A stretch of 64,000 nt of DNA, taken from assembly GCA_001592145.1 (NCBI GenBank), contig BCWJ01000005.1:186001-250000 (forward strand), read 5' to 3'. Below the pieces are notes generated by a model. The model was not told the origin of the DNA. It did not search any database and was given only the letters and a program-made list of their open reading frames with translations. Shown here piece after piece: positions 48,736 through 64,000 of the stretch (its first letter is position 1; each line of letters starts with the position of its first letter). Origin of the DNA: Xylanimicrobium pachnodae JCM 13526 = NBRC 107786 (GTDB taxonomy: Bacteria > Actinomycetota > Actinomycetes > Actinomycetales > Cellulomonadaceae). The position numbers and the translations under genes were made by a program.

Positions 48736-50156
48736 GAACGGCCGTCCGGCCGGGCGTGGGCGGGCGCGGTGTCGAGCGACCTCGCAGGATCGGGAGCGTC
48801 GCCGTGCCCGCGCAGCGTGACCACCGCGACGGGCAGGCACACGGCGAGCAGGGCGGTGACGGTCCACAGGGCCGGGCCCCGGCCCAGCGCATACCAGAGC
48901 ACGCCGAACGCTACCGAGGAGGCAAGCCTGCCCGCGGCCACCGCCGTCTGCACCGTGCCGATCGCCGAGGCGCGCACGCTGCCGGGCACCATGGCACCGG
49001 CCAGCGCCGGGAGCACACCGTCGGTGGCGGCGTAGAAGGCACCGAGCAGCACGAGCGCCCCCACGGTCACCCCGGGGGCGCCCGGTCCGGCGGCACACAC
49101 GTAGGCAAGCAGCAGGGCCACGTGCCCGGCGACGAACACGCGCAGCCGCCCGACCCTGTCGGCCAGGCGGCCGAACGGCACCGCGAGCGACATGTACGCG
49201 AGGTTGGTGCCCACGTACAGCAGTGGGAACCAGTGCGCGGCGAACCCGTCGCGATCCTGCAACGCCAGGTACACGAACCCGTCGCCCACCGTGAGCAGGG
49301 CCAGCACTCCTGCGACGACGACGGTGCGCCGCATGGCCGGCTCGCGCAGGAACGCCCAGCTGAAGGACGGCCCGCCCTGCGCGGTGACGGCCGGCGAGTC
49401 GCACGTGCAGCCCTTGCACTTGGGCAGGCCCCGGTCGGCGCGGTGCTGGTGCTTGGCCAACCAGTCCGCGCGCCGCGAGCGCACGTCCGGCACCAGGAAC
49501 GCCAGCACGGCCACGCCCACGACGGCGGCACCGAACGACGTGACGAACACCGTGGTGTACCCGTCCGGGATCACCCACAGGATGGTGAATGCGAGCAGCG
49601 GCCCGATCGACGCCCCCACGGTGTCGAGCGCGCGGTGCACCCCGAACGAGCGGCCCAGCGTGCGCGGGGTCGACGACGCGGCGATCATCGCGTCCCGCGG
49701 CGCGGTGCGGATACCCTTCCCGAACCGGTCGGCCGCGACCAGTGCCACCAGGGCGGCCGCGCCACCGGCGAAGAACATCCCGAGCCGGGTCAGGGCGGAC
49801 ACCGCGTACCCGACCAGCGCGATGCGCTTGGGGTGCCCGCCACGGTCCGCGGCCCACCCGGCGGCGATCCGCACCACCGAGCTGGCCCCCTGGAGGACGC
49901 CGTCCACCAGGCCGTAGGCGATCGTGGTCAGGCCCAGCGCCGTGGTCATGTAGAGCGGCAGGATCGCCGCGACCGCCTCCGAGGAGACGTCCGTCAGGAG
50001 GCTGACGATGCCCAGGCTGACGACGGTCGAGGAGACTCTCGCCGGAGTGACCCGGCGTCGAGACGTGCTGGCCTGGGCATGGGTCGAGCCGGCGGTGCCC
50101 TGCCTCGTCACGTCCTGCCTCGTCGGTGTGGTGCGCTGCGGGCTCGGCGCCGTCAT
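48732..50156 (-). CDS. MFS transporter with Cys/His-rich cytoplasmic loop
   Basis: A 474-residue 12-helix major facilitator. N-terminal half: SLGIVSLLTDVSSEAVAAILPLYM and loop WAADRGGHPKRIAL; second half includes FGRLADRVGRLRVF. The central loop between the two bundles contains KHQHRADRGLPKCKGCTC, a Cys3/His2 cluster capable of binding metal, which is unusual. Overlaps neighbours on both sides by four bases (ATGA upstream, GTGA downstream). The substrate is unknown; placement beside the glycan locus suggests export of a cluster product or precursor, but this is speculative. Confidence 0.85.
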   Translation of the reverse strand: MTAPSPQRTTPTRQDVTRQGTAGSTHAQASTSRRRVTPARVSSTVVSLGIVSLLTDVSSEAVAAILPLYMTTALGLTTIAYGLVDGVLQGASSVVRIAAGWAADRGGHPKRIALVGYAVSALTRLGMFFAGGAAALVALVAADRFGKGIRTAPRDAMIAASSTPRTLGRSFGVHRALDTVGASIGPLLAFTILWVIPDGYTTVFVTSFGAAVVGVAVLAFLVPDVRSRRADWLAKHQHRADRGLPKCKGCTCDSPAVTAQGGPSFSWAFLREPAMRRTVVVAGVLALLTVGDGFVYLALQDRDGFAAHWFPLLYVGTNLAYMSLAVPFGRLADRVGRLRVFVAGHVALLLAYVCAAGPGAPGVTVGALVLLGAFYAATDGVLPALAGAMVPGSVRASAIGTVQTAVAAGRLASSVAFGVLWYALGRGPALWTVTALLAVCLPVAVVTLRGHGDAPDPARSLDTAPAHARPDGRS

Positions 50157-50848
50157 CGCGCGGTTCCCGGTGTCAGGACGCCATGCAGGACGAGCGAGCA
50201 GCCCGCTGCCTGCGGCTGGGTGGCGATCGCGACGCTGGTGCTCCCGCGCGTGAACTCGAGCATGGCTCCCTCGGGTGTCTCGGAGGTGGTGTGCTCGGTG
50301 AACCCGCCGCGTGCGTACCAGTCGCGGGTGGCGATGAGCAGGGTGTCGCACGGGCCCGGGGCCACCGCGTCGAGAGCGGCCTGGGATCTTCCGGTGTTGG
50401 TGGTGATCGAACTGGACCGCACGGTGGCGTCGTCGGGCACGTAGATCACCTGGGCGGGGAAACCCGGGGCCAGCGCGCCGGTGGCCTCGGCGTCGGCCGG
50501 TGCGGTGGCGTAGGTACCTGCGGAGGGCGCATCGGTGGGCAGCAGATCGGCAAGGCTGGTGGGGACCGAGCCGGCCTGCGGGATCACCTCGCTCTCGACT
50601 CCGCCCGTACCGCCTTCGCTGGGTGTGCCGGTGGTGCTGGTTGCGTCGGGCGCCGTGGCTTCGGGTGCGGTCGGGCGCGGTGCCGCCACAGTCGCATCGC
50701 CACCGGTACCGGCGGAGGCAGTGGGACTCTCTGGGGTGATGCCCGCGTGGGCACCGTCCCCGGCCCCCGCGCCGAGGCGGGTGAGGAGCACGACGGTCAG
50801 ACCCACCACGATCACGGCTGCCAGCGCGGCAGCGACGGGCTTGTGCAC
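50153..50848 (-). CDS. Hypothetical single-pass exported protein
   Basis: A 231-residue protein with a short N-terminal membrane anchor (AAALAAVIVVGLTVVLLTRLG), a Thr/Ala/Pro-rich linker (about 30-100) and a small C-terminal domain of about 100 residues with two cysteines (PGPCDTLLIATRDW and AAGCSLVLHG) that could form a disulphide outside the membrane. No recognised family. First gene of the three-gene leftward operon; GTG 50848 with GAGG nearby. Confidence 0.7.
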   Translation of the reverse strand: MHKPVAAALAAVIVVGLTVVLLTRLGAGAGDGAHAGITPESPTASAGTGGDATVAAPRPTAPEATAPDATSTTGTPSEGGTGGVESEVIPQAGSVPTSLADLLPTDAPSAGTYATAPADAEATGALAPGFPAQVIYVPDDATVRSSSITTNTGRSQAALDAVAPGPCDTLLIATRDWYARGGFTEHTTSETPEGAMLEFTRGSTSVAIATQPQAAGCSLVLHGVLTPGTAR

Positions 50849-51087: not shown

Positions 51088-52602
51088 ATGACGACGACCG
51101 AGTACCTTCTGGCGCGTGCACCCGATGGTGCGATCGCCGTCACCGACGGTTCGACCGGGCACAGCTACGCCGAGCTGCGAGCGCAGGTCGCGGTCATGGC
51201 GGGGGCGCTGGCGGAGCTGTCGTTGCCACCAGGGTCTCCGGTAGCCATCCTCGCGCCGAACGGACCGTTCTGGGTCGCGGCATATCTGGCGACGATGGCC
51301 GCCGGGCTGGTGGCTGTTCCGGTAGCGACCACAGTGCCGGCCCCGGAGGTGGGCGCGAGGCTGAGCTGGGTGGGCGCGCGTGCGGCGTTCGTGGGTGAGG
51401 CGGCGATCCGGCGTGGTGCCTCCGTGGTGCCGGTCGGGGTGCCGATGCTCGCCGAGGGCGACCTGCCGGCGGTGCCGCACCGCCCGCTCGACGCGCTCGG
51501 ACTGCCTGTGGTAGGTCCAGATGACGACGCCGCCTGGCTGTTCACCTCGGGCACCGCGGGACGCCCCCGAGTGGTCCGGCTGACGCACCGCAACCTCCAG
51601 GCCAACACCGAGTCGATCCTGGGCTACCTGCCGCTGCGCCCCGACGAGCGGACGCTCACCGCTCTGCCGTTCACCTACGTGTTCGGCGCGTCCCTGCTGC
51701 ACACGCACCTGCGCGTGGGAGCCACGCTGGTGCACCAGCCGAGCTTCGCGTTCCCCGAGTCGGTGGTGCAGCGACTGGCCGCGCAGCGGTGCACGGGCTT
51801 CGCGGGGGTGCCGTCGATGTTCCACCTGCTGCTGCGCGCCAGCTCGTTCCCGCGGCGCGCGCTGCCCGCGCTGCGCACCGTCCAGCAGGCCGGTGGGCGG
51901 CTGCCGCCCGCGCTGCTGGGGGAGCTCGTCGCGGCGCAGCCCCAGGCTCGGGTGTTCGTGATGTACGGGCAGACGGAGGCCACCGCGCGGCTCTCCTACC
52001 TGCCGCCCGAGGAGCTCGCGTCCCGGCCGGGGTCGATCGGCAGGGGGATCCCCGGGGTGCACCTGCGCGTCGTCGGCGCCGACGGCTGCGACGTCGCCCC
52101 TCGGGAGGTGGGGGAGATCTACGCGCGCGGCCCCAACATCTCCCCGGGGTACCTGCGCGACGACGCCGCCACCGCGCGCACGATGCCCGGCGGCGAGCTG
52201 CACACCGGGGATCTCGCCACGGTGGACGACGACGGCTACCTGTACGTCGTCGACCGCAGCGAGGACTTCATCAAGTCCTGGGGGTTCCGCATCGCGAGCC
52301 AGGACGTCGAGGCCGCCGCGATGGAGCATCCGGGACTCGTGCAGGCCGCTGCGATCGGCGTGCCCGACGACGCCGCGGGCGAGCGCGTCGAGCTCGTGGC
52401 CGTGGCCCGGGCCGGGGTGACACTCACCGCCGACGACGTCGTCGCGCACTGCCGTCGACTGCTCGCGAGGCACCAGGTCCCCGAGACCGTGCACCTGGTC
52501 GCAGAGCTGCCGCTCAACGCGAACGGCAAGGTGCTCAAGCGCGAGCTGCGGGCGCGCTACGCGTCGCCCGCGCGTACCCCGGCCGCTGCCCGGGCAGGGT
52601 AA
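51088..52602 (+). CDS. AMP-dependent acyl/aminoacyl ligase (ANL superfamily)
   Basis: A 504-residue adenylating enzyme with all core motifs: LFTSGTAGRPRVVRLTHRN (about residues 151-169), MYGQTEA (about 292-298), HTGDLATVDDDGYLYVVDR, KSWGFRIASQDVEAA and the C-terminal NANGKVLKREL with catalytic Lys481. It lacks a fused carrier domain, so it probably loads a free acceptor, plausibly the acyl carrier protein at 57164-57415, or CoA. The adenylated acid cannot be deduced. The following SGNH gene starts 10 bp downstream with the ribosome site AAGGAGG, so the pair forms an operon with acpS. Confidence 0.88.
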   Translation: MTTTEYLLARAPDGAIAVTDGSTGHSYAELRAQVAVMAGALAELSLPPGSPVAILAPNGPFWVAAYLATMAAGLVAVPVATTVPAPEVGARLSWVGARAAFVGEAAIRRGASVVPVGVPMLAEGDLPAVPHRPLDALGLPVVGPDDDAAWLFTSGTAGRPRVVRLTHRNLQANTESILGYLPLRPDERTLTALPFTYVFGASLLHTHLRVGATLVHQPSFAFPESVVQRLAAQRCTGFAGVPSMFHLLLRASSFPRRALPALRTVQQAGGRLPPALLGELVAAQPQARVFVMYGQTEATARLSYLPPEELASRPGSIGRGIPGVHLRVVGADGCDVAPREVGEIYARGPNISPGYLRDDAATARTMPGGELHTGDLATVDDDGYLYVVDRSEDFIKSWGFRIASQDVEAAAMEHPGLVQAAAIGVPDDAAGERVELVAVARAGVTLTADDVVAHCRRLLARHQVPETVHLVAELPLNANGKVLKRELRARYASPARTPAAARAG

Positions 52603-52612
52603 GGAGGCCCAC

Positions 52613-53521
52613 ATGTCCGACATCCGCACCCCCGTGCCGCCCGCACCCGGACGCCCGCGTCGCCGCGGTGCCGTCGTGGTCGTCACCCTTGCTGCCCTCG
52701 CCGTGGCTGCCGTCGTGGCCGTGGCGGCGATCCTGCTCGAGAGGAACCGCATCATGCCCGACGTCGCCGAGCCCGGGGCCACGGGTCCGGGCGCCACCGC
52801 GCCCCTGGCCACCACCGCGCCGACCGCGGACGAGCTGACCGCCGCGGGGCACGCGCGAGTGCTGTTCGGGCACCAGTCCGTGGGGGACAACATCCTGGGC
52901 GGCATCGCGGCCGTCTATGAGCAGGCCGGGGTGACGCCCCCGCAGATCGTCGAGACCCGCGAGCCGGTGACCGGCGGCGACGGGTTCATCGCCCACACCT
53001 ACGTGGGTGCCAACGGCGACCCGATGGGCAAGCTGGACGACTTCGTGGCCCTCACGAAGGGCCCGTTGGGGGACGGCGTCGACGTCCTCCTCGTGAAGTT
53101 CTGCTACGTGGACGTCACGGCGTCGACGGACGTGCAGGCCCTCTTCGACGGCTACGTGGCGGCGATGGACCAGATCCAGGCGGCGCATCCGGGCACCGTC
53201 GTGCTCTACACGACCGTGCCGCTGACTGCCGACCGCAGTGGCGGAGTCACGGCGATGGTCAAGTCGCTGCTCGGGCGTGGGGCCACCGACGTGGCCGACA
53301 ACACCGCGCGCGCCCAGTACAACGCGCTGGTCCGTGAACGGTTCGGGGAGACGGGCCGCCTATTCGATATCGCGGCCGTCGAAGCAGCCCCGGGCTCCGA
53401 CCCGGCCGCGCTCGACCCGGAGCTGACGTGGGACGGAGGCCACCTCAACGAGGCGGGCGCCCAGGCCGCCGCCCGCGAGCTCCTGCGGGTCGTCGCCGCG
53501 ACCATCACCCCTGCGGGCTGA
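52613..53521 (+). CDS. Membrane-anchored SGNH/GDSL-like hydrolase or acyltransferase
   Basis: A 302-residue protein with an Arg-rich cytoplasmic end, one membrane segment (AVVVVTLAALAVAAVVAVAAILL) and an extracytoplasmic domain. The SGNH-like pattern is divergent: the block-I serine probably lies in LFGHQSVGDN (Ser89), a lone Lys/Phe-Cys segment replaces block II, and DGGHLNEAG (Asp274, His277) matches block V. Related domains add or remove acyl groups on secreted polysaccharides. Its place between an AMP-ligase and a phosphopantetheinyl transferase suggests a DltD-like role in moving an ACP-borne group to a surface glycan (inference). Confidence 0.75.
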   Translation: MSDIRTPVPPAPGRPRRRGAVVVVTLAALAVAAVVAVAAILLERNRIMPDVAEPGATGPGATAPLATTAPTADELTAAGHARVLFGHQSVGDNILGGIAAVYEQAGVTPPQIVETREPVTGGDGFIAHTYVGANGDPMGKLDDFVALTKGPLGDGVDVLLVKFCYVDVTASTDVQALFDGYVAAMDQIQAAHPGTVVLYTTVPLTADRSGGVTAMVKSLLGRGATDVADNTARAQYNALVRERFGETGRLFDIAAVEAAPGSDPAALDPELTWDGGHLNEAGAQAAARELLRVVAATITPAG

Positions 53522-53524
53522 CCT

Positions 53525-54001
53525 ATGGGGACACGCGTGCACGGGACAGGGATCGACGTCGCCGACGTCTCACGCTTCGCACGGCTGGTGGCGCGCGGAC
53601 CGGTGTTCACGGGGCGCTGGTTCAGCGCGGACGAGATCGCGCGCTGCCAGTGGTCCACCGACCCGGCCCGGGCGTACGCCGAGTGCTACGCGGCCAAGGA
53701 GGCCATCTGGAAGGCGCTCGCCCTCACCGGGTGGACGGGACCCGTGCCGTGGCGCTGGATCACCGTCGTCGAGCGCCCCGACGGTGCCTGGGAGGTCACG
53801 CTGAGCGGCCCGGTGGCGGCGGCCGCCGCCACCGCGTGCGTGGGCGAGGTGCAGATCGCCATCACCCACTCGGGCACTCGCGCCGTCGCGATCGCCCTGG
53901 CGACGGCCCGCGAGGGCGATCGCGGCAACGCGGTCGGCGACGTCGTCGATCAGCCCACCTCGGGGACCGGTTCGACCAGCACGGGAGGTTCGTGCAGGTA
54001 G
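53525..54001 (+). CDS. Holo-[acyl-carrier-protein] synthase (AcpS-type phosphopantetheinyl transferase)
   Basis: A 158-residue AcpS-family enzyme that transfers phosphopantetheine from CoA to the carrier-protein serine. Motifs: HGTGIDVADVSRFARL (Mg-binding Asp), YAECYAAKEAIWKAL (the catalytic Glu/Lys helix) and VQIAITHSGTRAVAIAL near the C-terminus. Encoded three bases after the SGNH gene. Its last 52 bases overlap the end of the convergent NAD synthetase gene. Probably dedicated to the ACP of this locus, though it could also be the housekeeping AcpS. Confidence 0.9.
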   Translation: MGTRVHGTGIDVADVSRFARLVARGPVFTGRWFSADEIARCQWSTDPARAYAECYAAKEAIWKALALTGWTGPVPWRWITVVERPDGAWEVTLSGPVAAAAATACVGEVQIAITHSGTRAVAIALATAREGDRGNAVGDVVDQPTSGTGSTSTGGSCR

Positions 54002-54927
54002 GCGGTGGTGCGCCGCTTCTGCTCGATGTCGCGGTAGACGCGCCGCACCTGCTCGGCGGTGAGCCCCGCGGCGGCGGCGACGTCGTCGACCGCGACGGCG
54101 TTGTTGAGTCCGTACAGGCACAGGTCCATGCGCGCGTGCGGCAGCGAGAAGTAGAACTCCTCCTGGGACTGGGCCAGCGAGTACGTGTCCGTCGTGGAGG
54201 GACGCTCCTGGATCTGTTCCGGCACGCCCAGGTGCGCGGCCAGCGCGTACACCTGCGACTTGTACAGGTGTGCGATGGGCTTGACGTCGGCGGCGCCGTC
54301 GCCGAGCTTCACGAAGAACCCCTGGTCGTACTCCAGCCGGTTGGGCGTGCCCGTGACCACGTAGTTGAGCCGGTCGGCGTGGTAGTACTCGAACATCTTG
54401 CGGGTGCGCTGCTTGAAGTTGGTGGCGGCGACGATGCCCAGGTACGCCGCGGTGGTCAGCCGCCGGGTGACCCGCGAGCCGTCCGGGGCCTGCACGACGA
54501 TCGAGTAGAGCCGGTACGAGTCCGAGTCGACCACGCTGGGCAGCACGATCTTGGACCGCCAGCCCGGACCGAACTCCGGGATCACCTCGCGGATCGCGGC
54601 GTCGCGGCGGCGGTAGCACCCGGCGGCGTCCAGGACCGGCCCGATGTTCTCGACCACCGAGTCGATGCCGAGCGAGTCGGTGAGCAGCGTCGAGAAGGTG
54701 AGCGACTCGTCCGCGGACTCCGACTCGGGCAGGTGCAGGCCGAGCACGCGGTCGGGCCCCAGCGCGCGCACCGCGAGCGCGGCGACGACGGACGAGTCGA
54801 TGCCCCCGGACACGGCGACGACGGCGCCCTTGCGCCGGGAGCCCCGGACCACGTCGCGGATCGCCGCGGTGATGCGTGCGACGGCGGCCTCGGGATCGAG
54901 GGTGAGGGTCTGCGGACCGAAGCTCAT
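53950..54927 (-). CDS. nadE: NH3-dependent NAD(+) synthetase
   Basis: A 325-residue N-type ATP pyrophosphatase. The PP-loop AVSGGIDSSVV (residues about 38-48) and downstream signatures TNFKQRTRKMFEYYHADRLNY, GTPNRLEYDQGFFVKLGDGAADV and PIAHLYKSQVY identify a NadE-type protein. There is no glutaminase (nitrilase) domain, so it needs free ammonia or a partner. It is coupled by ATGA overlap to a glutamine-hydrolysing asparagine synthetase homologue. It may be a repurposed amide-forming enzyme of the glycan locus rather than the housekeeping NAD synthetase; sequence alone does not decide. Confidence 0.85.
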   Translation of the reverse strand: MSFGPQTLTLDPEAAVARITAAIRDVVRGSRRKGAVVAVSGGIDSSVVAALAVRALGPDRVLGLHLPESESADESLTFSTLLTDSLGIDSVVENIGPVLDAAGCYRRRDAAIREVIPEFGPGWRSKIVLPSVVDSDSYRLYSIVVQAPDGSRVTRRLTTAAYLGIVAATNFKQRTRKMFEYYHADRLNYVVTGTPNRLEYDQGFFVKLGDGAADVKPIAHLYKSQVYALAAHLGVPEQIQERPSTTDTYSLAQSQEEFYFSLPHARMDLCLYGLNNAVAVDDVAAAAGLTAEQVRRVYRDIEQKRRTTAYLHEPPVLVEPVPEVG

Positions 54928-56909
54928 GGGTGGCCCCTCCTTGTTCTCGCGTGGTCGTGCACCACCATCGGTGACGGCGGTGCGGCAGGGCAGCGGTGCT
55001 CGCTGCCGAGGAACATCTGGTGGAGGAGCTGGGCGGACACGATCGCGACGAGCCGCATGTTGTCCGTGTTGCTGAGCCCGCGTCCGTGCGTGCGGCGGCA
55101 CTTGTCCACGAGCCGCTCCACGATGACGGGCTGGAACACCCCGGCGGCTGTGATCGCCTCGGGGGACAACGCCTCGTCGAGCCACTCCGGCGTTCCGCTC
55201 CCGAAGAACGCGGCGGCGTCGGGCGCCCGGTAGGGCTGCTTGGGCCGGGCCAGGATCTCGGGCGGCACCAGGTCGGCGAAGGCCCGCTTGAGCAGGTACT
55301 TCTCGTTCATGTCGAGGATCTTCTGCTCGGCGGGGAACTCGCTCGCCAGGGCGACGACGCCGGGGTCCAGGAACGGGAACCGGCCCTCGACGGAGCTCGC
55401 CGCGAGCATGCGATCGCCCTGGGACGACAGGAGGTAGCCGGGCAGCAGGGTGGCGAGCTCCAGCCATTGAGCGCGCGCGAGGCCGTCCCAGCGCGACGCC
55501 TCGGACGGCATGCGGTCCAGCACCGCACCGTCCGCCGCGCCGTCGAACCGGAGGTCGGGGGTCAGCATCGAGGTGAGCACGGCCGTCGAGTCCCATCGGG
55601 GCCGGTGCGACATCGCCGGGTCACGGGCGTCCAGGTTCCGGCCGAAGAACTGGGCAGCGAACGCTGGGGCGAAGGCGGGGGAGCGCTTCATCCACGGGTA
55701 GAGCTGCTCGACGGCTGCGGCGCGATCGACCGAGCCGGGGTCGGTGAGCCACCGCTCACGTAGTCGCGCCTCCCGGAAGATGTCGTAGCCCGCCAGCACC
55801 TCATCGCTGCCCTCGCCCGTGACGACGACCCGGTAGCCCTGGTCGCGCACGTGGCGTGAGAGCAGGAGCATGGGTGCCGCGGCCGTGCGCAGCAGCACGG
55901 TCTCAGCGTGATGCACGACGTCGGGGAACACCTCGGCGATCTGCCGCTCGGTGACCACCACCTCGCTGTGCCGGGTGCCCAGCGTGCGGCTCATGAGGTC
56001 CTGGTAGCCGCCCTCGTCGAGATCGGCGTCGGCGAACCGCAGCGAGAACGTGTGCAGGTCGGCATCCGTGTACTTCGTGATCGCCGCCGCCGTCACCGCG
56101 GAGTCGAGACCCCCCGACAGGTAGGCGCCCACGGGGATGTCGCTGCACTCGAACCGCAACCGGGTGGCCTGGACGACCTGGTCGCGCAGGTCGACCGTGT
56201 TCGCGTCGAGGTCCCGCCGCGGCTCCGCACCCCGCTCGGGGAAGCTCGGCTCCCAGTAGCGGTGTTCGTGCAGGCCCGCGGCGCCCACCTCCAGGTAGGA
56301 GCCGGGTGCCACCTGCTCGACGCCGGCGAACACGGTCCGGGGTGCGAACGGTGCCCAGAGCGTCAGCGTCTGAGCGAGCCCCTGCGGGTCGAGAGCGCGT
56401 CGCACGCGCGGGTCCGTGAACAGCGCCTTGACCTCGGAGGCGAACAGCAGGCGGTCTCCGGCACGTGCGTAGTAGAGCGGCGCGATGCCCATCGGGTCGC
56501 GACTCAGCACCAGACGGTCGGTCCGCCGGTCCCGGATCGCCATCGCCCACTGCCCGTTGAACCGTTCGAAGCAGCCCGGGCCCCACTCCAGCCAGGCCTG
56601 CAGCGCAACCTCGGTGTCCGAGCGGGTGCGGAAGCGATGCCCGCGGTCGCGCAGCTGTGCCGCCAGCTCCAGGTAGTTGAAGATCTCGCCGTTGAACGTG
56701 ACCCAGACCTGCTCGTCGTCGTCGCACATCGGTTGCGCCCCGCCGGCCGCGTCGATCACCGCCAGGCGCGTGTGGCCCAGGGCCACGGTGTCGTCACGGA
56801 ACCAGCCGCAACCGTCCGGGCCGCGGTGGTGCAGCGCGGCCATCATCCGCGCGACGGCGTCGACGTCGGGCACCGCCGATGGCGACCAGATGCCGCAGAC
56901 TCCGCACAT
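54924..56909 (-). CDS. asnB: Glutamine-hydrolysing asparagine synthase-like amidotransferase
   Basis: A 661-residue class II amidotransferase. Cys2 (MCGVCGIW) is the glutaminase nucleophile, with HHRGPDG, GHTRLAVID and VTFNGEIFNY completing that domain. The synthetase domain has the PP-loop YLSGGLDSAVT (around residue 265) and VVTGEGSDEVLAGYD. Length and motifs fit AsnB, but homologues in polysaccharide and secondary-metabolite clusters amidate other carboxylates. ATG 56909 follows GGGAGGTG. First gene of a two-gene leftward operon with nadE, divergent from the ACP operon. Confidence 0.88.
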   Translation of the reverse strand: MCGVCGIWSPSAVPDVDAVARMMAALHHRGPDGCGWFRDDTVALGHTRLAVIDAAGGAQPMCDDDEQVWVTFNGEIFNYLELAAQLRDRGHRFRTRSDTEVALQAWLEWGPGCFERFNGQWAMAIRDRRTDRLVLSRDPMGIAPLYYARAGDRLLFASEVKALFTDPRVRRALDPQGLAQTLTLWAPFAPRTVFAGVEQVAPGSYLEVGAAGLHEHRYWEPSFPERGAEPRRDLDANTVDLRDQVVQATRLRFECSDIPVGAYLSGGLDSAVTAAAITKYTDADLHTFSLRFADADLDEGGYQDLMSRTLGTRHSEVVVTERQIAEVFPDVVHHAETVLLRTAAAPMLLLSRHVRDQGYRVVVTGEGSDEVLAGYDIFREARLRERWLTDPGSVDRAAAVEQLYPWMKRSPAFAPAFAAQFFGRNLDARDPAMSHRPRWDSTAVLTSMLTPDLRFDGAADGAVLDRMPSEASRWDGLARAQWLELATLLPGYLLSSQGDRMLAASSVEGRFPFLDPGVVALASEFPAEQKILDMNEKYLLKRAFADLVPPEILARPKQPYRAPDAAAFFGSGTPEWLDEALSPEAITAAGVFQPVIVERLVDKCRRTHGRGLSNTDNMRLVAIVSAQLLHQMFLGSEHRCPAAPPSPMVVHDHARTRRGHP

Positions 56910-57163
56910 CTGCACCTCCCGGATGGACTGCCTGGCCGACCCCAGCGGGGACGTCGACGACTCGGGCAACGGCCGCCAGGGCGCCCGTGCTCTATGCCGA
57001 GCGTGCCCACGCACTGGTGAGGAAGGCCAGCACCTGAGTATCTGTGGACGCGGATTCACCCGGCGTTGTGCAGAGTTCGCCCCCTTTGGGCCGTCTTGGC
57101 GGTGCGGGTGGGGCGGTTCAATGAAGGTGTCCGGCGTTGAGCCCGGCTGTGGAGGGGAACGCG
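56910..57163. promoter_or_regulatory. Divergent asnB/ACP promoter region
   Basis: No gene is supported in these 254 bases. CACCCGG (57057-57063) is a half-copy of the palindrome found at the other promoters of the locus, here followed by CGTTG. TTGGCG (57095-57100) could serve as a -35 for the ACP operon, but a convincing -10 was not found. GGAGGGGA just before ATG 57164 is the ACP ribosome site. Confidence 0.4.
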
Positions 57164-57415
57164 ATGGACCATGTTCAAGAACGGATCGAGACGTTCGTGC
57201 TCGACCAGTTGCTCCTCGGTGACGCGGACCGCATGCCCGCCCACGGCGACTCACTGATCGAGACCGGGGTGATCGACTCCACCGGCGTCCTGGAGCTCAT
57301 CGAGTTCCTGGAGGCGGAGTTCGGCATCCGGGTGGCCGACGACGAGACGGTCCCGGGAAACCTGGACGGCATCGAGCGCCTGGCGGCGTTCGTCGAGCGG
57401 AAGACGGCGCGGTGA
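57164..57415 (+). CDS. Acyl carrier protein
   Basis: An 83-residue four-helix carrier protein. The phosphopantetheine attachment site is Ser39 in GVIDSTGVLELIEFLE, and the acidic helix 2/3 region EAEFGIRVADDE is typical. ATG 57164 follows GGAGGGGA. The stop overlaps the start of a hexapeptide acyltransferase (GTGA), so the two are co-translated. With an AMP-ligase, an AcpS and an SGNH protein nearby, it likely holds an activated acyl or aminoacyl group for modifying a glycan precursor; the fatty-acid ACP would normally be elsewhere. Confidence 0.9.
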   Translation: MDHVQERIETFVLDQLLLGDADRMPAHGDSLIETGVIDSTGVLELIEFLEAEFGIRVADDETVPGNLDGIERLAAFVERKTAR

Positions 57416-58086
57416 CGGCTGCCCGGATCGCCCGTGCCCCATCGCGGCCCCGCCTCGACTTCCGCGCGGACCTGGCGCGGCACGTGGCGACCCGCACCCG
57501 CACGTCCCAGCCGTCGCGAGCGGCGCGATGGTGGCTGCTCGCGACGGACTCCGAGCTGCACACGGTGGCGTGCTTCCGGTTCGGGCAGTATGTGGCGTTG
57601 CTCCGCGAGGACCACCACCTGCTCGCCGTGCCCGCCCTGGTGCTCCATCGGCTCTGGAACCGCCGCATCACCCACATCCACCACGCGGAGCTCAGCGGCC
57701 GCGCGACCATCGGTCCGGGGCTGCTGCTCATGCACCGTCACGGTGTCGTCGTCGGACCCTGCACGATCGGAAGGAACTGCGTGCTGCACCACAACCTCAC
57801 GATCGGTGAGCGGGTCGCCGCCGGGAACCACGGGACGCCGCACATCGGTGACAACGTGTGGATCGGTCCCGGCGTCACCCTCACCGGTGCGATCACGGTG
57901 GGCGACGGCGCCACCCTGTCGGCAGGCAGCGTCGTGTCCCGGGACGTCCCGGCGGGCGCCCTGGTGGCGGGGAACCCGGGCCGCGTCATTGCCCGCGACT
58001 ACGACAACCGTCCGATCCTCGGGTGCCCACCGCCCCCGAACACGTCCGCGCCGAGCACGCCCGCGGCGCGTGAGGCGGTCCGGTGA
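57412..58086 (+). CDS. Serine acetyltransferase-like hexapeptide acyltransferase
   Basis: A 224-residue left-handed beta-helix protein. The N-terminal 60 residues are helical; from about residue 85 run hexapeptide repeats (ATIGPGLLLMHRHGVVVGP, TIGRNCVLHHNLTIGE, HIGDNVWIGPGVTLTG, VGDGATLSAGSVV) ending in VAGNPGRVI. This is CysE-like, but such proteins in glycan loci O- or N-acylate sugars, and coupling to the ACP gene suggests the acyl donor may be ACP rather than acetyl-CoA. GTG 57412 overlaps the ACP stop. Confidence 0.85.
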   Translation: MTAARIARAPSRPRLDFRADLARHVATRTRTSQPSRAARWWLLATDSELHTVACFRFGQYVALLREDHHLLAVPALVLHRLWNRRITHIHHAELSGRATIGPGLLLMHRHGVVVGPCTIGRNCVLHHNLTIGERVAAGNHGTPHIGDNVWIGPGVTLTGAITVGDGATLSAGSVVSRDVPAGALVAGNPGRVIARDYDNRPILGCPPPPNTSAPSTPAAREAVR

Positions 58087-59006
58087 GCGGGGTGCTCGAC
58101 CCGGGGGTCGGCGTCGCGATCGTCACCCGCTTCAACCTCCCCTCCCCGGGAGCGGAGTCTCTCATCCGGGCGAAGGAGGGCTGGCTGCGCGGCCGCGTCG
58201 AGCTGTTCGAACGGTACTGCCTGCCCAGCGTCGTGGCCCAGCGCGACCGCGACTTCGCGTGGATCGTGTACATCGACCCGGCCAGCCCGCAGTGGTTCCT
58301 GGACTGGGTGGACCGCACCGCGCCGGGGGCGTTCACGCCGCTGCGCCGCGAGGCGGTCGAGCCGGCCGATCTCGCGGCCGACGTCGCACGGGCACTCGGC
58401 GCCCGGACCGGATCTGCGCCCACCGACCGCGTCCTGACCGTGAACCTCGACAACGACGACGCCGTCGCCGTCGACTTCGTGGCCCGCCTGCGCGCGGCGG
58501 GGGAGCAGCGGGCGGGGCGCACCGCCCTGTACCTGGAGAACGGCCTGATCCTGCAGGGCACGCACCTGTTCGCGCGGCGCGACCCTTCCAACGCGTTCTG
58601 TGCCGTCGTCGAACCGTGGCAAGACCCGATGGGGAGCGGCCCGGTGACCTGCTGGGCCGACTGGCACAACCGCCTGGAGCTCCAGATGCCGGCCGTCCGG
58701 GTGGGCGGGGCACCGGGTTGGCTCCAGGTGGTGCACGGGTCGAACGTGAGCAACCGGGTGCGCGGCCGGCTCGTGAGCCCGCGCCCGTACTCCGGCCTGT
58801 TCGCCGTCGTCGTGGACGACCTGCCGCGGCCCTCCTGGGGCGACCTGCTGGTGGACCGGGTGGTGCGTTCGCCGCTGCGCGCGTTGCGCGACGGGGCTCG
58901 TCAGGTGGTCAAGACGGTGATTCTCACGGTGGGCGGCCGGACCGCCCTCAGCCGCCTGCGTGACGCCCGGGCCGGCGTCGCAGCGGCCGCACGCCGGGGG
59001 GCCTGA
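58083..59006 (+). CDS. Putative rhamnosyltransferase-like glycosyltransferase
   Basis: A 307-residue protein resembling the putative rhamnosyl transferase family (PF11316): VAIVTRFNLPSPGAESL, LPSVVAQRDRDFAWIVYID, an acidic donor-site motif TVNLDNDDAVAVDF, and a C-terminal hydrophobic stretch. Probably adds a sugar to a lipid-linked or nascent glycan. GTG 58083 overlaps the upstream stop (GTGA), making ACP-acyltransferase-glycosyltransferase a coupled trio. Confidence 0.72.
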   Translation: MSGVLDPGVGVAIVTRFNLPSPGAESLIRAKEGWLRGRVELFERYCLPSVVAQRDRDFAWIVYIDPASPQWFLDWVDRTAPGAFTPLRREAVEPADLAADVARALGARTGSAPTDRVLTVNLDNDDAVAVDFVARLRAAGEQRAGRTALYLENGLILQGTHLFARRDPSNAFCAVVEPWQDPMGSGPVTCWADWHNRLELQMPAVRVGGAPGWLQVVHGSNVSNRVRGRLVSPRPYSGLFAVVVDDLPRPSWGDLLVDRVVRSPLRALRDGARQVVKTVILTVGGRTALSRLRDARAGVAAAARRGA

Positions 59007-59109: not shown

Positions 59110-59138
59110 GTCCGCCATCGGATGTGAGGACTCCTCGG

Positions 59139-60257
59139 ATGGATTCGCCGCTCGACACCCCACCGCCCGACAGGATCCTGCGCGCCGCTGTCATCGGTGC
59201 TGGGTACTGGGGTCCGAACCTCGCTCGCAACTTCGCGAGCTCGCCACGGTGGGACCTGGTCGCCGTGTGTGATCTGGACGCCGAGCGCGCCGCGAAGGTC
59301 GCCCGTGCGGCCGGCGGCGCCCAGGCCATGACCTCGGTGGACGAGCTTCTCGCCCGCGACGACGTCGACGCCGTCGCCATCGCCACCCCGGCCCGCACCC
59401 ACCACGCGCTCGTGATGGCGGCGCTGCGCGCCGGCAAGCACGTGGTGGTGGAGAAGCCCATCGCCGACGACGTCGACGCGGCACGCGAGATGATCGCCGA
59501 AGCGGCGGCCCGCGGACTGGTGCTCATGACGGACCACACGTTCTGCTACACCCCGGCGGTGGTCAAGATCCGTGAGCTGATCGAGGCGGGCGAGCTGGGC
59601 GAGATCCTGTTCGTCGACTCGGTGCGCATCAACCTCGGGCTGGTGCAGCAGGACGTGGACGTGTTCTGGGACCTGGCCCCGCACGACCTGTCCATCCTCG
59701 ACTACATCCTGCCGGGCGGCCTGCAGCCCGAGTCCGTGGCCGCGCACGGTGCCGACCCTCTCGGGGCGGGCAAGGCGTGCGTGGGGCACCTGGTGCTGCC
59801 CCTGCCCGGTGGTGCGGTCGCGCACGTCAACGTCAACTGGCTCAGCCCCACCAAGATCCGTAGCTTCACGGTGGGTGGCTCGCGTCGCACGCTCGTGTGG
59901 GACGACCTCAACCCGCAGCAGCGCCTCAGCGTGTACGACCGCGGCGTCGACCTGGAGACCCAGGCCCTCGACCGGCTGGACCGCAAGCACGCCACCATCT
60001 CCTACCGGCTGGGCGACACCTGGTCGCCCGCCCTCAAGGAGCGTGAAGCGCTGGGAGCCATGGTCGCCGAGCTCGCGGACTCGATCACGCAAGGTCGTGC
60101 CCCCCTGACCGACGGCGCAGCTGGGCTGCGGGTGCTCAACATCCTGGCTGCGGCGTCGGCCAGCCTGGCCGCCGGGGGCGACGCGTGCCCGGTAGCGATG
60201 GAGCCCGTGGTGATCGGGACCGAGACGAGGGACGAACTGGTGGGAGAGCCTGTATGA
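59139..60257 (+). CDS. Gfo/Idh/MocA family nucleotide-sugar oxidoreductase
   Basis: A 372-residue NAD(P)-dependent oxidoreductase. Rossmann motif VIGAGYWGPNLARNF, the EKP motif in VVVEKPIADD and WDLAPHDLSILDYIL with the active-site His. In amino-sugar pathways WbpB-type members oxidise C3 of UDP-GlcNAcA before transamination, which fits the downstream aminotransferases and acyltransferase. ATG 59139 with GAGGA upstream is preferred; GTG 59124 is possible. The stop overlaps the next start (ATGA); first gene of a five-gene coupled operon. Confidence 0.9.
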   Translation: MDSPLDTPPPDRILRAAVIGAGYWGPNLARNFASSPRWDLVAVCDLDAERAAKVARAAGGAQAMTSVDELLARDDVDAVAIATPARTHHALVMAALRAGKHVVVEKPIADDVDAAREMIAEAAARGLVLMTDHTFCYTPAVVKIRELIEAGELGEILFVDSVRINLGLVQQDVDVFWDLAPHDLSILDYILPGGLQPESVAAHGADPLGAGKACVGHLVLPLPGGAVAHVNVNWLSPTKIRSFTVGGSRRTLVWDDLNPQQRLSVYDRGVDLETQALDRLDRKHATISYRLGDTWSPALKEREALGAMVAELADSITQGRAPLTDGAAGLRVLNILAAASASLAAGGDACPVAMEPVVIGTETRDELVGEPV

Positions 60258-61246
60258 GCGTGTTGGACGGTGCGGAAGTCCTGGTCACGGGCGGGGCGGG
60301 GACGATCGGGTCGACGCTGGTGGACCAGCTTGTCAACGCAGGTGTCGCCCACGTCGACGTGGTCGACAACCTGGTGCGCGGGCGGCGCGCGAACCTCGAC
60401 GACGCCCTGGCCACCGGTCGGGTCAGTCTGATCGAGGGTGACATCCGTGACCGGGACCTGGTGCACGACCTGACGAAGGGCAAGGACCTGGTGTTCCACC
60501 AGGCCGCGATCCGCATCACCCAGTGCGCGGAGGAGCCCCGTCTCGCCCTCGAGGTGATGGTCGACGCCACGTTCAACGTGTTCGAGGCCGCCGCCGAGCA
60601 CAAGGTCGGCAAGCTCGTCACGGCGTCGTCGGCATCCGTGTACGGCATGGCGGAGCAGTTCCCGACGACAGAACGCCACCACCACCACAACAACGACACC
60701 TTCTACGGGGCGTCGAAGTCGTTCAACGAGGGGATGCTCCGGTCGTTCCGGGCCATGTACGGCCTGGACTACGTGGCCCTGCGCTACTTCAACGTGTACG
60801 GCCCGCGCATGGACGTGCACGGCCTGTACACCGAGGTGCTGGTGCGGTGGATGGAACGCATCGCCGACGGCAAGCCCCCGCTGATCTTCGGTGACGGCCG
60901 CCAGACGATGGACTTCGTGTGCGTGCCCGACATCGCCCACGCCAACGTGCTCGCCGCGGCGTCCGACGTCGTGGACGGGCACTACAACATCGCGTCGGGC
61001 ACCGAGACCAGCCTGCTGGAGCTTGCTGAGGCGCTCCTGCGGGCCATGGACTCGGACCTGGGCGTCGAGCACGGTCCGGAACGGGCTGTCAACGGCGTGG
61101 TGCGCCGCCTGGCCGACACGTCCGCCGCGCGCCGCGACCTGGGCTTCGAGTCGACGATCGGGCTCGACGAAGGGCTGCGGCTGCTCGTGGACTGGTGGCG
61201 CCCCCTGCGCGCGGAGATCGCCGCCGGGCGGAAGGCCGCCGCATGA
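60254..61246 (+). CDS. NAD-dependent nucleotide-sugar epimerase/dehydratase
   Basis: A 330-residue extended SDR: LVTGGAGTIGSTLVDQL (cofactor loop), TASSASVYGMAEQF and the catalytic FYGASKSFNEGMLR, RYFNVYGPRMDVHGLY and DFVCVPDIAHAN. Most like UDP-glucose/GlcNAc 4-epimerases (GalE/WbpP type) or 4,6-dehydratase relatives. Supplies or epimerises the activated sugar for the operon product. Coupled on both sides by ATGA overlaps. Confidence 0.9.
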   Translation: MSVLDGAEVLVTGGAGTIGSTLVDQLVNAGVAHVDVVDNLVRGRRANLDDALATGRVSLIEGDIRDRDLVHDLTKGKDLVFHQAAIRITQCAEEPRLALEVMVDATFNVFEAAAEHKVGKLVTASSASVYGMAEQFPTTERHHHHNNDTFYGASKSFNEGMLRSFRAMYGLDYVALRYFNVYGPRMDVHGLYTEVLVRWMERIADGKPPLIFGDGRQTMDFVCVPDIAHANVLAAASDVVDGHYNIASGTETSLLELAEALLRAMDSDLGVEHGPERAVNGVVRRLADTSAARRDLGFESTIGLDEGLRLLVDWWRPLRAEIAAGRKAAA

Positions 61247-62439
61247 ACCTCCACTCCGCGACTGCTGCCGCTCCGGTGGCCGAGGCTCCCACCCGCATCA
61301 ACGTGATGAAGCCCTGGCTCGGTGCCGACGAGGTTGCCGCGGTCACGGCAGTCATCGAGTCCGGTTGGGTAGCACAGGGCCCGAGGGTGGCCGCGTTCGA
61401 GCGCGCGTTCGCGGACGCCGTGCAGGCCGCGGACGCCGTCGCCGTGTCCTCCTGCACCACCGCGCTGCACCTGGCGCTCGTCGTCGCCGGTATCGGGGCA
61501 GGCGACGACGTCGTCGTGCCGTCGTTCTCGTTCATCGCGACCGCGAACGCCCCCACCTACGTGGGCGCCCGTCCCGTGTTCGCCGACGTCGACGCGGTCA
61601 CCGGCAACGTGACCGCGCAGAGCGTCGAGGCGGCGCTGACCCCCGCCACCCGTGCCGTCATCGTCGTCGACCAGGGCGGCGTGCCCGTCGACCTCGACCC
61701 CATCCGGGCGCTGTGCGACCCGCGCGGCGTCGTCGTCATCGAGGATGCCGCCTGCGGGGCCGGGTCCACCTACCGGGGCCGGCCCGTCGGGGCGGGAGCC
61801 GAGCTCGCCGCCTGGTCGTTCCACCCCCGCAAGATCCTCACCACCGGTGAAGGCGGCATGCTCACCACGAGCAACCCCGAATGGGCGGCACGCGCACGCC
61901 GTCTGCGCGAGCACGCCATGAGCGTCTCGGCCGCAGACCGGCACGCGGACCTGGTCTCCCCGCCCGAGCAGTACGAGGAGATCGGCCACAACTTCCGCAT
62001 GACCGACCTCCAGGCCGCCGTCGGCCTGGTACAGCTCGGCAAGCTGCCCGAGGCAGTTGCGCGACGCCGGGAGCTGGCCGCGAGGTACCGGTCGGCGCTC
62101 GCGGACGTGCCCGGCGTGCGCCTGGTGGACGACCCGCCGTACGGAACCGCCAACTTCCAGTCGCTGTGGCTGGAGGTGACGCCGCCCTACCCGCTGGACC
62201 GCGAAGGGCTGCTGCTCGCGCTCGCGCAGGCTGGCGTGTCGGCGCGGCGCGGCATCATGGCGGCGCACCGCCAGCCTGCCTATGCGGGTCGCGACACCGG
62301 CTCCGCCACGCTCCGGGTGACCGAGCGGCTGACCGATGCGACGCTGATCCTTCCGCTGTTCCACCAGCTCACCGAGGACGAGCTGGCGCGGGTCGTCGCC
62401 GTCATTCGTGGGCCGGTCCCCCACGTCGACGGGGCTTGA
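61243..62439 (+). CDS. DegT/DnrJ/EryC1 family sugar aminotransferase
   Basis: A 398-residue PLP-dependent aminotransferase acting on keto-sugar nucleotides. Signatures: SSCTTALHLALVVAGIG, VVIEDAACGAGSTYRG and the PLP lysine in WSFHPRKILTTGEGGML, with GHNFRMTDLQAAVGLVQL. The aminated position cannot be read from sequence. Followed one base after its stop by the NeuD-like gene. Confidence 0.92.
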   Translation: MNLHSATAAAPVAEAPTRINVMKPWLGADEVAAVTAVIESGWVAQGPRVAAFERAFADAVQAADAVAVSSCTTALHLALVVAGIGAGDDVVVPSFSFIATANAPTYVGARPVFADVDAVTGNVTAQSVEAALTPATRAVIVVDQGGVPVDLDPIRALCDPRGVVVIEDAACGAGSTYRGRPVGAGAELAAWSFHPRKILTTGEGGMLTTSNPEWAARARRLREHAMSVSAADRHADLVSPPEQYEEIGHNFRMTDLQAAVGLVQLGKLPEAVARRRELAARYRSALADVPGVRLVDDPPYGTANFQSLWLEVTPPYPLDREGLLLALAQAGVSARRGIMAAHRQPAYAGRDTGSATLRVTERLTDATLILPLFHQLTEDELARVVAVIRGPVPHVDGA

Positions 62440-62440
62440 G

Positions 62441-63076
62441 ATGACCGGCGTGCTGATCCTCGGGGCGAGCGGGCTCGCCCGTGAGGTGCTGCCCGTGCTG
62501 CGCGAGCAGGGCCGCGACGTTCTGGGCATCCTGGACGATCGGCACGCGGAGCTGCCCCGCACGGTCGGTGGCGTCCCCGTGCTCGGTGGGATCGCCGACG
62601 TCGGCCTGTACCCCGACGCCGAGCTCCTCGCGTGCGTCGGCCCCAGTGGCGTGCGCTCGGACGTCGTCGCCCGGGCCGAGTCGGCGGGCGCCCGGCAATG
62701 GGCGACCGTCGTCGACCCGTCGGTGCGCAACCCCGGTGACTGCCCGGTGGGGCAGGGCTCGATCCTGCTGGCGGGGGTCACCCTCACCGCCGATGCCGTT
62801 CTTGGCGAGCACGTGGTGGCGATGCCCGGGGTGACGGTCACGCACGACTGCCTGGTCGGGGACTTCGCAACGCTCGCTGCGGGCGTGTCCCTCGGCGGGG
62901 CAGTGCGCGTCGGGCGTGCCGCCTACCTCGGGATGAACGCCTCCGTCCGCCCCGGCGTCGTCATCGGCGCTCACGCGACGGTCGGCATGGGGGCCGCGGT
63001 CCTGACCGACGTGCCCAGTACGAAGACGTGGGTGGGCGTACCCGCCCGGCAACTGAAAGCAGGTGTCCGTCCATGA
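62441..63076 (+). CDS. NeuD/PglD-like sugar N- or O-acyltransferase
   Basis: A 211-residue acyltransferase with an N-terminal PglD-type nucleotide-sugar-binding domain (VLILGASGLAREVLPVL) and a C-terminal left-handed beta helix (about 95-205) containing VAMPGVTVTHDCLVGDFATL, where the His is the likely catalytic base. Such enzymes N-acylate amino sugars made by DegT aminotransferases. Lies between two aminotransferase genes, matching amino-sugar acylation. Confidence 0.88.
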   Translation: MTGVLILGASGLAREVLPVLREQGRDVLGILDDRHAELPRTVGGVPVLGGIADVGLYPDAELLACVGPSGVRSDVVARAESAGARQWATVVDPSVRNPGDCPVGQGSILLAGVTLTADAVLGEHVVAMPGVTVTHDCLVGDFATLAAGVSLGGAVRVGRAAYLGMNASVRPGVVIGAHATVGMGAAVLTDVPSTKTWVGVPARQLKAGVRP

Positions 63077-64000
63077 GCGTTCCCTTCCTCGACCTGGCCG
63101 CGCAGTCGGCCGAGATCGCCGACGAGGTCTTGCCCACGTGGCAGGAGCAGCTCCTGTCCGCGGGATTCGTGGGCGGCAGCGAGGTCGCCGCGTTCGAGTC
63201 CGAGTACGCCGCGTACATCGGCACCCGGCACGTCGTCGGGGTGGGGAACGGCACCGACGCCGTGGAACTCGCGCTGCGCGCTGTCGGCGTCCGTGCCGGC
63301 GACGAGGTGGTGATACCCGCGAACACGTTCATCGCGACAGCGGAGGCCGCCTCCCGCATCGGCGCGGTGCCCGTTCTCGTGGACGTCGACGCCGAGCACC
63401 TGCTCATCGACCCCGCCGCCGTCGAGGCCGCCGTCACCGAACGCACCCGCGCCGTCGTGCCCGTGCACCTGTACGGCCAGACCGCGCCCGTGGAGGACCT
63501 GCGGCCCATCGCCAACCGGCACGGCCTCGCCATCGTCGAGGACGCCGCCCAGTCGCAAGGGGCGTCGTCGTCGGCGGGCATGGCCGGTGCGCTGGGACGG
63601 GTGGCCGCCACGAGCTTCTACCCGGGCAAGAACCTGGGCGCCGCCGGCGACGCCGGCGCGGTGCTCACGAACGACCCCGAGGTCGCGGCGTTCGTGCGCA
63701 ACGTCGCGGCCCACGGGTCCACCACCAAGTACGTGCACGACCGTGTGGGGTTCAACTCCCGGCTCGACGCCGTCCAGGCCCCCGTGCTGCGCGCCAAGCT
63801 GCGCCGGCTCGACGGGTGGAACAAGGCCCGCCGGATCGCCGCCGACCGCTACGCCGAGCTCTTGGCCGATGTGCCGGGCGTGCGCGTGCCCACCAGCCGC
63901 GCAGGCAACGAGGACGTGTGGCACCTGTACGTGGTGCAGGTCGAGGAGCGCGACCTGGTGCTCGCCGAGCTGCACCAGGCCGGGATCGGCGCCGCCCTGC
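63073..64000 (+). CDS. DegT/DnrJ/EryC1 family sugar aminotransferase, partial at right edge
   Basis: About 309 codons are present with no stop before the window ends. VPFLDLAAQ at the start, VGVGNGTDAVELALRAVGV, VIPANTFIATAEA, IVEDAAQSQGA and the PLP lysine in SFYPGKNLGAAGDAGAV identify a second sugar aminotransferase, closer to the FdtB/QdtB (3-amino sugar) type than its neighbour. ATG 63073 overlaps the preceding stop (ATGA). Confidence 0.92.
   Translation, partial: MSVPFLDLAAQSAEIADEVLPTWQEQLLSAGFVGGSEVAAFESEYAAYIGTRHVVGVGNGTDAVELALRAVGVRAGDEVVIPANTFIATAEAASRIGAVPVLVDVDAEHLLIDPAAVEAAVTERTRAVVPVHLYGQTAPVEDLRPIANRHGLAIVEDAAQSQGASSSAGMAGALGRVAATSFYPGKNLGAAGDAGAVLTNDPEVAAFVRNVAAHGSTTKYVHDRVGFNSRLDAVQAPVLRAKLRRLDGWNKARRIAADRYAELLADVPGVRVPTSRAGNEDVWHLYVVQVEERDLVLAELHQAGIGAAL

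Follow-up and report, generated by a model that had tools for sequence, protein, structure and literature searches.

A seven-gene ligase, carrier-protein and amidotransferase cassette in a Xylanimicrobium polysaccharide locus, with a proposed role in acyl decoration

The 64,000-nucleotide stretch of the Xylanimicrobium pachnodae draft genome analysed here (the window, G000:C5:186001-250000, which ends 2,340 bases before its contig stops) carries a cassette of seven genes within a polysaccharide locus. They encode a stand-alone AMP-forming ligase (LIG), a GDSL/SGNH-type protein (SGNH), an AcpS-family protein (ACPS), an NAD-synthase-like enzyme (NADE), an asparagine-synthase-family amidotransferase (ASNB), a stand-alone acyl carrier protein (ACP) and a hexapeptide acyltransferase (HEX). 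We favour, with a probability of roughly 0.55, the reading that this cassette serves an exopolysaccharide locus as its own ACP-dependent module for acyl decoration, in which an acid is loaded, transferred to a sugar precursor and amidated. The gene content, the recurring co-occurrence and order of the genes and their glycan context are direct observations. The enzyme families are ordinary ones, in a combination for which we found no description in the openly licensed literature, and the same holds for the ASNB-ACP-LIG-NADE core on its own.

The arrangement is a real conserved unit and more than a product of chance, since it recurs in other genomes. In G002, a closed, single-contig genome of the same genus, the seven genes from LIG to HEX stand in the same order and orientation at 58–83% identity over their aligned parts (74% for LIG), and the counterpart of RHAT, the putative rhamnosyl transferase gene that follows HEX in the window, lies about 4 kb further on at 70% identity. 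When the window genome was searched together with ten others of its genus (G001–G010, four of them less than 80% complete), a ligase match at E ≤ 1e-60 was found only in the window genome and G002. The window gene order recurs in four other loci in all: in G002 and, as a mirror image, in L049, L050 and L052.

For the wider sample, an alignment scan of named genomes with NADE kept the best 80 of at least 561 relatives, a number that may include ordinary NAD synthases; because the best-scoring ones were kept, these 80 loci are the part of the family most like the window protein. Within 10 kb of NADE, at thresholds of our own choosing, ASNB is present in 74 of the 80 loci, LIG in 71, ACP in 66 and all three in 62. 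The 43 loci with full flanks give 42, 40, 37 and 35, respectively. The housekeeping controls MetG, KsgA and TatD occur at none of the 80, and a fourth control, ABC-F, found at 14, was discounted because we attribute its hits to cross-matches among ABC ATPases; we treat it as uninformative and failed. Same-strand neighbours less than 400 bases apart are most often ACP–LIG (38 cases), followed by ASNB–NADE, ACP–ASNB and LIG–NADE (36 each), with LIG–SGNH and SGNH–AcpS at 15 each. By record titles and tree labels, the loci come from at least Actinomycetota, Pseudomonadota, Planctomycetota, Verrucomicrobiota, Acidobacteriota and Myxococcota, with Thermodesulfobacteriota, Nitrospirota, Spirochaetota, Gemmatimonadota, Armatimonadota and Rokuibacteriota in addition, and rhizobia are among the hosts of the four-gene core. 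In the ligase tree, the cassette of a record titled Bacillus subtilis has a ligase that groups tightly with the one from Pseudochrobactrum (loci L074 and L081), and the assembly may be mislabelled or mixed.

SGNH and AcpS are characteristic of the cassette in Actinomycetota. By hand count, 18 of the 19 loci from this phylum have AcpS (the nineteenth, L059, ends early) versus 2 of 61 others, and 15 of the 19 have SGNH versus 5 of 61. SGNH directly adjoins the core in four non-actinobacterial loci, beside NADE in L070 and L091 and beside ACP in L088 and L107.

An earlier, sequence-only reading of the window had described a carrier-protein module embedded in a glycan locus, and this description holds: glycan genes adjoin the cassette, and the gene set occurs together in other genomes as well. 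Gene coordinates and family scans place the ligase, anchored SGNH protein, AcpS, ACP, hexapeptide acyltransferase and glycosyltransferase where that reading had put them, and ACP is coupled to HEX as it had said, the start of HEX overlapping ACP by 4 bases. Its gene list overlooked NADE and ASNB, the two minus-strand genes that separate AcpS from ACP; these are the most constant partners and part of the conserved core.

The glycan context extends beyond the window, where the contig continues with a family 2 glycosyltransferase (GT2) and a flippase, and the G002 region encodes Wzx, Wzy_C, WecG and GT2 proteins. In a tally of neighbours that covers 106 of 107 listed proteins from 11 loci, counted over proteins and not per locus, the 25 families listed of 120 include bacterial sugar transferases (5), polysaccharide biosynthesis or flippase proteins (4), polysaccharide deacetylases (4), exosortases (3), GT2 proteins (3) and Wzz (3). 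On the examined parts of contigs C42, C11 and C19, a search for a continuation of the locus with 17 G002 proteins matched only the flippase, and only in L001. Acyl_transf_3 has three matches in the window genome and one in the wider G002 region. Two of the three (G000:C11:738-1763 and G000:C19:96303-97508) are near contig ends and may thus be connected with a polysaccharide locus that the assembly has broken.

This setting bears on whether the cassette could instead be a small-molecule or lipid pathway that happens to be located in polysaccharide loci, making for example an amide natural product or an acyl-amino lipid. The best family for ACP is an ornithine-lipid ACP and the second a cispentacin ACP, both below cut-off, an MFS transporter is encoded at 48732-50351, and the nearest solved relative of ASNB is 7ylz, named a hydroxyamidotransferase, which we take to be a natural-product enzyme. 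Such a pathway nevertheless seems improbable, as polysaccharide genes adjoin the cassette in both the window contig and G002 and are common among the 106 tallied neighbours, and the scanned window proteins include no ketosynthase or nonribosomal peptide synthetase.

Two of the cassette enzymes, NADE and ASNB, would form amides. The nearest solved structures of NADE are ammonia-dependent NAD synthetases; in alignment it retains the SGGIDSS loop and the GDGxAD stretch, and no glutaminase domain was seen in it. A role dedicated to the cassette rather than to housekeeping is plausible for NADE because contig 1 carries a further NadE-like frame (218.3 bits, below the NF010588 cut-off of 479). Likewise, PF01648 genes number two in the genome, the cassette ACPS and one on contig 3, so that the second AcpS-family gene and the other NadE-like frame both fit with dedicated cassette parts. 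AcpS and NADE are convergent and overlap by 52 bases (53950-54001), and the frames in G002 overlap too, by 23 bases (L011:3565-3587).

ASNB scores 365.1 bits against TIGR03108 (cut-off 816.9), the family of WbpS/WbqG proteins according to PMC7468200. That paper reports uronamides from WbpS/WbqG-type AsnB proteins, states that loss of WbpS (PGN_1234) removed the amide and cites WbqG as required. The cassette thus shares AsnB-family amidation in a polysaccharide pathway with WbpS/WbqG, which are reported to act on sugar uronates, whereas the cassette ASNB is linked to LIG, ACP and NADE. On this precedent, amidation might concern the sugar only, with ASNB and NADE making uronamides in the WbpS manner and LIG, ACP and HEX separately adding an acyl group. 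The window neighbours do look like an amino-sugar route, with DegT, a Gfo protein scoring 153 bits to UDP-GlcNAc 3-dehydrogenase (cut-off 450) and a NeuD-family protein above its cut-off. However, across the 54 kb of G002 that were examined, the Gfo, epimerase and DegT queries matched nothing and NeuD gave a weak match, with the cassette intact there, and the recurring four-gene core suggests a single shared pathway. We consider amidation of the sugar only to be rather unlikely. The neighbouring amino-sugar genes were rejected as an obligatory partner because of the missing Gfo, epimerase and DegT matches. Within the acyl-decoration reading, the constancy of ASNB and NADE beside LIG and ACP, together with the lack of amino-sugar genes in G002, leans towards amidation of the acid, and the WbpS precedent leans towards the sugar.

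The XrtA/PEP-CTERM exopolysaccharide loci contain the same two enzyme families, a ligase (TIGR03098) and an amidotransferase (TIGR03108). The cassette differs from them in that its ligase (297.9 bits against TIGR03098, cut-off 592.35) and ASNB fall far below the cut-offs, in that no exosortase was found among the scanned window proteins and in the additional NADE.

The ligases were divided into two classes, A and B, by a short motif surrounding the A4 position, at which amino-acid-activating domains have an aspartate to bind the alpha-amino group. The window ligase is class A, with the motif YVFGAS and a valine at the aspartate position. Class A ligases have V (13), C (12), A (2) or I (2) there in 29 rows, a thirtieth and uncounted row, L070_2nd, having K, as opposed to D (36), G (4) or N (2) in class B. 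Judged by this motif, LIG is probably not of the amino-acid-activating type. Of 85 ligase sequences assembled for a tree, 81 had a blastp match and 80 were used, L006 being too short; the own-genome ligases L130 and L133 and the relatives L005 and L007 were left out, and outgroup rows were long-branched. Class B forms one side of a well-supported branch (100/97), two of its rows standing for proteins other than the cassette's own ligase. Class A is clustered, yet forms a single group in just 20% of bootstrap trees.

The two classes go with different partners. In 27 class A loci, SGNH and AcpS occur 14 times each, and neither a PrmC-like methyltransferase nor a tandem-GNAT protein is found; in 42 class B loci, the methyltransferase occurs 17 times, the tandem-GNAT protein 22, SGNH 4 and AcpS 2. 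These counts exclude 11 of the 80 loci, without a ligase or with a partial one, and enter L070, which has both classes, under B, although the ligase adjoining its NADE is class A. L070 and L085 each have two AMP-ligases of different classes (L070:8403-9965 and L085:11912-13573 among the scanned neighbours), and two of all the neighbours scanned match TIGR03098, with a best E of 5.5e-180.

Enzymes with an NPPY motif methylate planar NH2 groups, such as those of amides. This motif is present in 16 of the 17 methyltransferases of the class B core, for which an amide produced by the cassette is a possible substrate. The tandem-GNAT protein, 371 residues long and without a Pfam match, is encoded at L104:11016-12131 (minus strand) and in 22 further loci of the 80; its modelled fold resembles N-myristoyltransferase and Eis, making it a candidate acyltransferase of the class B form. 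No tandem-GNAT gene was identified among the scanned window proteins. A further reading, which we hold as tentative and on balance doubtful, is an undescribed pathway in which ASNB and a repurposed NAD synthase would give the ACP-bound acid a nitrogen-rich group, either a diamide or an amide turned into an amidine. The acid would then decorate exopolysaccharides across about a dozen phyla, the pathway having two subtypes that differ in their ligases and finishing enzymes.

A sequence search gave no relative of SGNH with a solved structure (best E 0.34), and the structure model of SGNH, with a mean predicted local distance difference test score of 87.3, supports an SGNH/GDSL fold. In an alignment of 21 sequences, Ser89 and Asp274 are invariant and His277 is present in at least 90%. 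A Foldseek comparison with the PDB puts the model closest to platelet-activating-factor-acetylhydrolase-like proteins, as well as to sialate O-acetylesterases and acetyl xylan esterases. The best E is 2.9e-6, the top matches have TM-scores by target of about 0.6, and hydrolases are in the majority among the fold matches listed. In G002, a second GDSL-like protein is encoded directly upstream of the ligase (L011:3-644, plus strand; PF13472 29.2 bits, below cut-off).

The sequence-only reading had called the module Dlt-like. Dlt (DltA, DltB, DltC and DltD) and the cassette do share an adenylating ligase, a carrier and an anchored SGNH-type protein. The MBOAT family of DltB (PF03062), of which that reading had seen no gene in the window, has no match in either the draft window genome or the closed G002, with a control positive in 3 of 14 genomes, and the DltD family (PF04914) none in the same two genomes, with a control positive in 2 of 14. 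DltA is not among the 60 listed of 77 solved relatives of the ligase, the best of which are CoA ligases, and valine replaces the A4 aspartate. With no MBOAT, no DltD and a ligase apparently not of the amino-acid type, we dropped both the Dlt label and membership in that system. AlmEFG, a Dlt-like ligase and carrier system without MBOAT, which places glycine onto lipid A, resembles the cassette in having a ligase and carrier without MBOAT and differs in its target and in the use of glycine; it is not known to us to include an ASNB or NADE.

Tetronate acylation in Vibrio cholerae O1 is a better analogue than Dlt, here combined with WbpS-type amidation. A surface-polysaccharide locus there includes RfbL and RfbK, a proposed pair of ligase and stand-alone carrier (PMC12208996), and the tetronate acyl group is carried on perosamine, an amino sugar, according to PMC3441752. 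By family scans, the window has the corresponding set, with a ligase, a stand-alone ACP and an acetyltransferase-like protein in a glycan locus. The rfbKLMNO (wbe) system shares these features, RfbO presumably being its acetyltransferase-like protein. Its acid is a four-carbon hydroxy acid, and the two systems are likened here by gene content. To our knowledge, rfbKLMNO has no ASNB, NADE, AcpS or SGNH partner.

In the acyl-decoration reading, AcpS would convert ACP to holo-ACP, and LIG would adenylate an acid, probably one without an alpha-amino group, and load it onto ACP. Going by the chemistry of their families, ASNB with glutamine and NADE with ammonia would amidate carboxyls, either on the acid bound to ACP or on the acceptor sugar. 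HEX, whose nearest solved structures are serine acetyltransferases, may then act as the cytoplasmic transferase, taking the acyl group off ACP and placing it on a sugar nucleotide or a lipid-linked sugar, at an amino or a hydroxyl group. The glycosyltransferases and flippase, whose genes are present in the locus, would build and export the polymer, and SGNH, from its predicted fold, may act outside as a carbohydrate esterase or an editing acyl hydrolase.

Several points weigh against this reading. The nearest solved relatives of LIG are CoA ligases (fatty-acyl-, feruloyl- and oxalyl-CoA), so LIG might produce acyl-CoA. The sequence-only reading had proposed that its view would fail if the ligase clustered with dedicated CoA ligases and did not load the ACP, a question now half answered, as CoA ligases are the nearest by sequence. 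ACP reaches known carrier families only at scores below their cut-offs, with no Pfam match and NF052616 as its top NCBIfam family (47.2 bits, cut-off 130). At least one of ASNB, LIG and ACP is missing in 8 of the 43 full-flank loci. HEX scores above our threshold in 10 of the 80 loci and RHAT in none, so the genes for transfer and glycosylation are more variable than the core, and the transfer step elsewhere differs or goes unrecognised. As the methyltransferase is found in no class A locus, it lends only indirect support to an amide in the window. The need for two amide-forming enzymes lacks an explanation, and we found no biochemistry for any member of the cassette. Finally, the fold matches of SGNH also include 6se1, the periplasmic domain of a Salmonella O-antigen/lipopolysaccharide acetyltransferase, so SGNH may have an extracytoplasmic transferase role.

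This last match would suit transfer across the membrane as in Dlt or AlmEFG, where a membrane acyltransferase takes the ACP-bound acid and SGNH places it on a secreted polymer. The adjacency of LIG, SGNH and AcpS on one strand, with ACP nearby, fits such a scheme, as do the Acyl_transf_3 genes of the two genomes. We nonetheless regard it as very unlikely, given the absence of MBOAT and DltD from both, a cassette that itself holds no membrane acyltransferase, a ligase seemingly of another type than the amino-acid one and the preponderance of hydrolases among the listed SGNH fold matches.

Table 1. Cassette genes and adjoining features in window coordinates, and loci with the class B methyltransferase.
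Feature	Position or loci	Strand	Assignment	Basis
LIG	51088..52602	+	Stand-alone AMP-forming ligase, class A, proposed acyl-ACP ligase	PF00501 (230.9 bits) and PF13193; class motif; place in tree
SGNH	52613..53521	+	Predicted membrane-anchored extracytoplasmic GDSL/SGNH enzyme	PF13472 (29.7 bits, cut-off 32.9); structure model
ACPS	53525..54001	+	AcpS family	PF01648 (41.5 bits)
NADE	53950..54927	-	NAD-synthase-like PP-loop enzyme, PRK00876 subfamily	NF002048 (497.4 bits, above cut-off 313)
ASNB	54924..56909	-	Glutamine amidotransferase, asparagine synthase family	PF00733, PF13537; TIGR01536 (452.7 bits, cut-off 267.1)
Gap between divergent ASNB and ACP	56910..57163		254 bases, presumed promoter region	Gene coordinates
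ACP	57164..57415	+	Stand-alone carrier protein	Phosphopantetheine-site-like motif IDSTGVLEL; weak family matches; loose DS-type motif in 61 of 66 carriers taken from other loci, of which a few extractions are short or degenerate
HEX	57412..58086	+	Serine-acetyltransferase-like hexapeptide acyltransferase	PF00132
RHAT	58083..59006	+	Putative rhamnosyl transferase	PF11316 (142.7 bits)
Neighbouring sugar-nucleotide genes	59124..63999	+	Gfo/Idh/MocA, epimerase, DegT, NeuD-like acetyltransferase, DegT; outside the cassette count	Glycan context
PrmC-like methyltransferase with NPPY	L065, L072, L086, L087, L088, L095, L099, L100		Class B form	
PrmC-like methyltransferase with NPPY	L104, L105, L107, L109, L112, L113, L118, L120		Class B form	

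Upstream of the cassette, the window encodes a 1580-residue protein (42894-47636, plus strand) with an N,N-dimethylformamidase beta-like domain (PF20254) and four DUF4082 domains. Homologues lie within 10 kb of NADE in 6 of the 80 loci, nearly full length in L052 and L059, and none was matched in the examined stretch of G002. A defence role for the cassette was considered and dropped, as none of its seven proteins matches a PADLOC model.

If the cassette works as proposed, it would furnish biofilm or capsule polymers with a chemical group not yet characterised and would assign a role to the subfamily called 'NAD(+) synthase' in NCBIfam. If the more tentative pathway with its nitrogen-rich group is also true, a repurposed NAD synthase would take part in a widespread form of polymer decoration. 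The cassette is a compact set of soluble enzymes, suited to in vitro tests.

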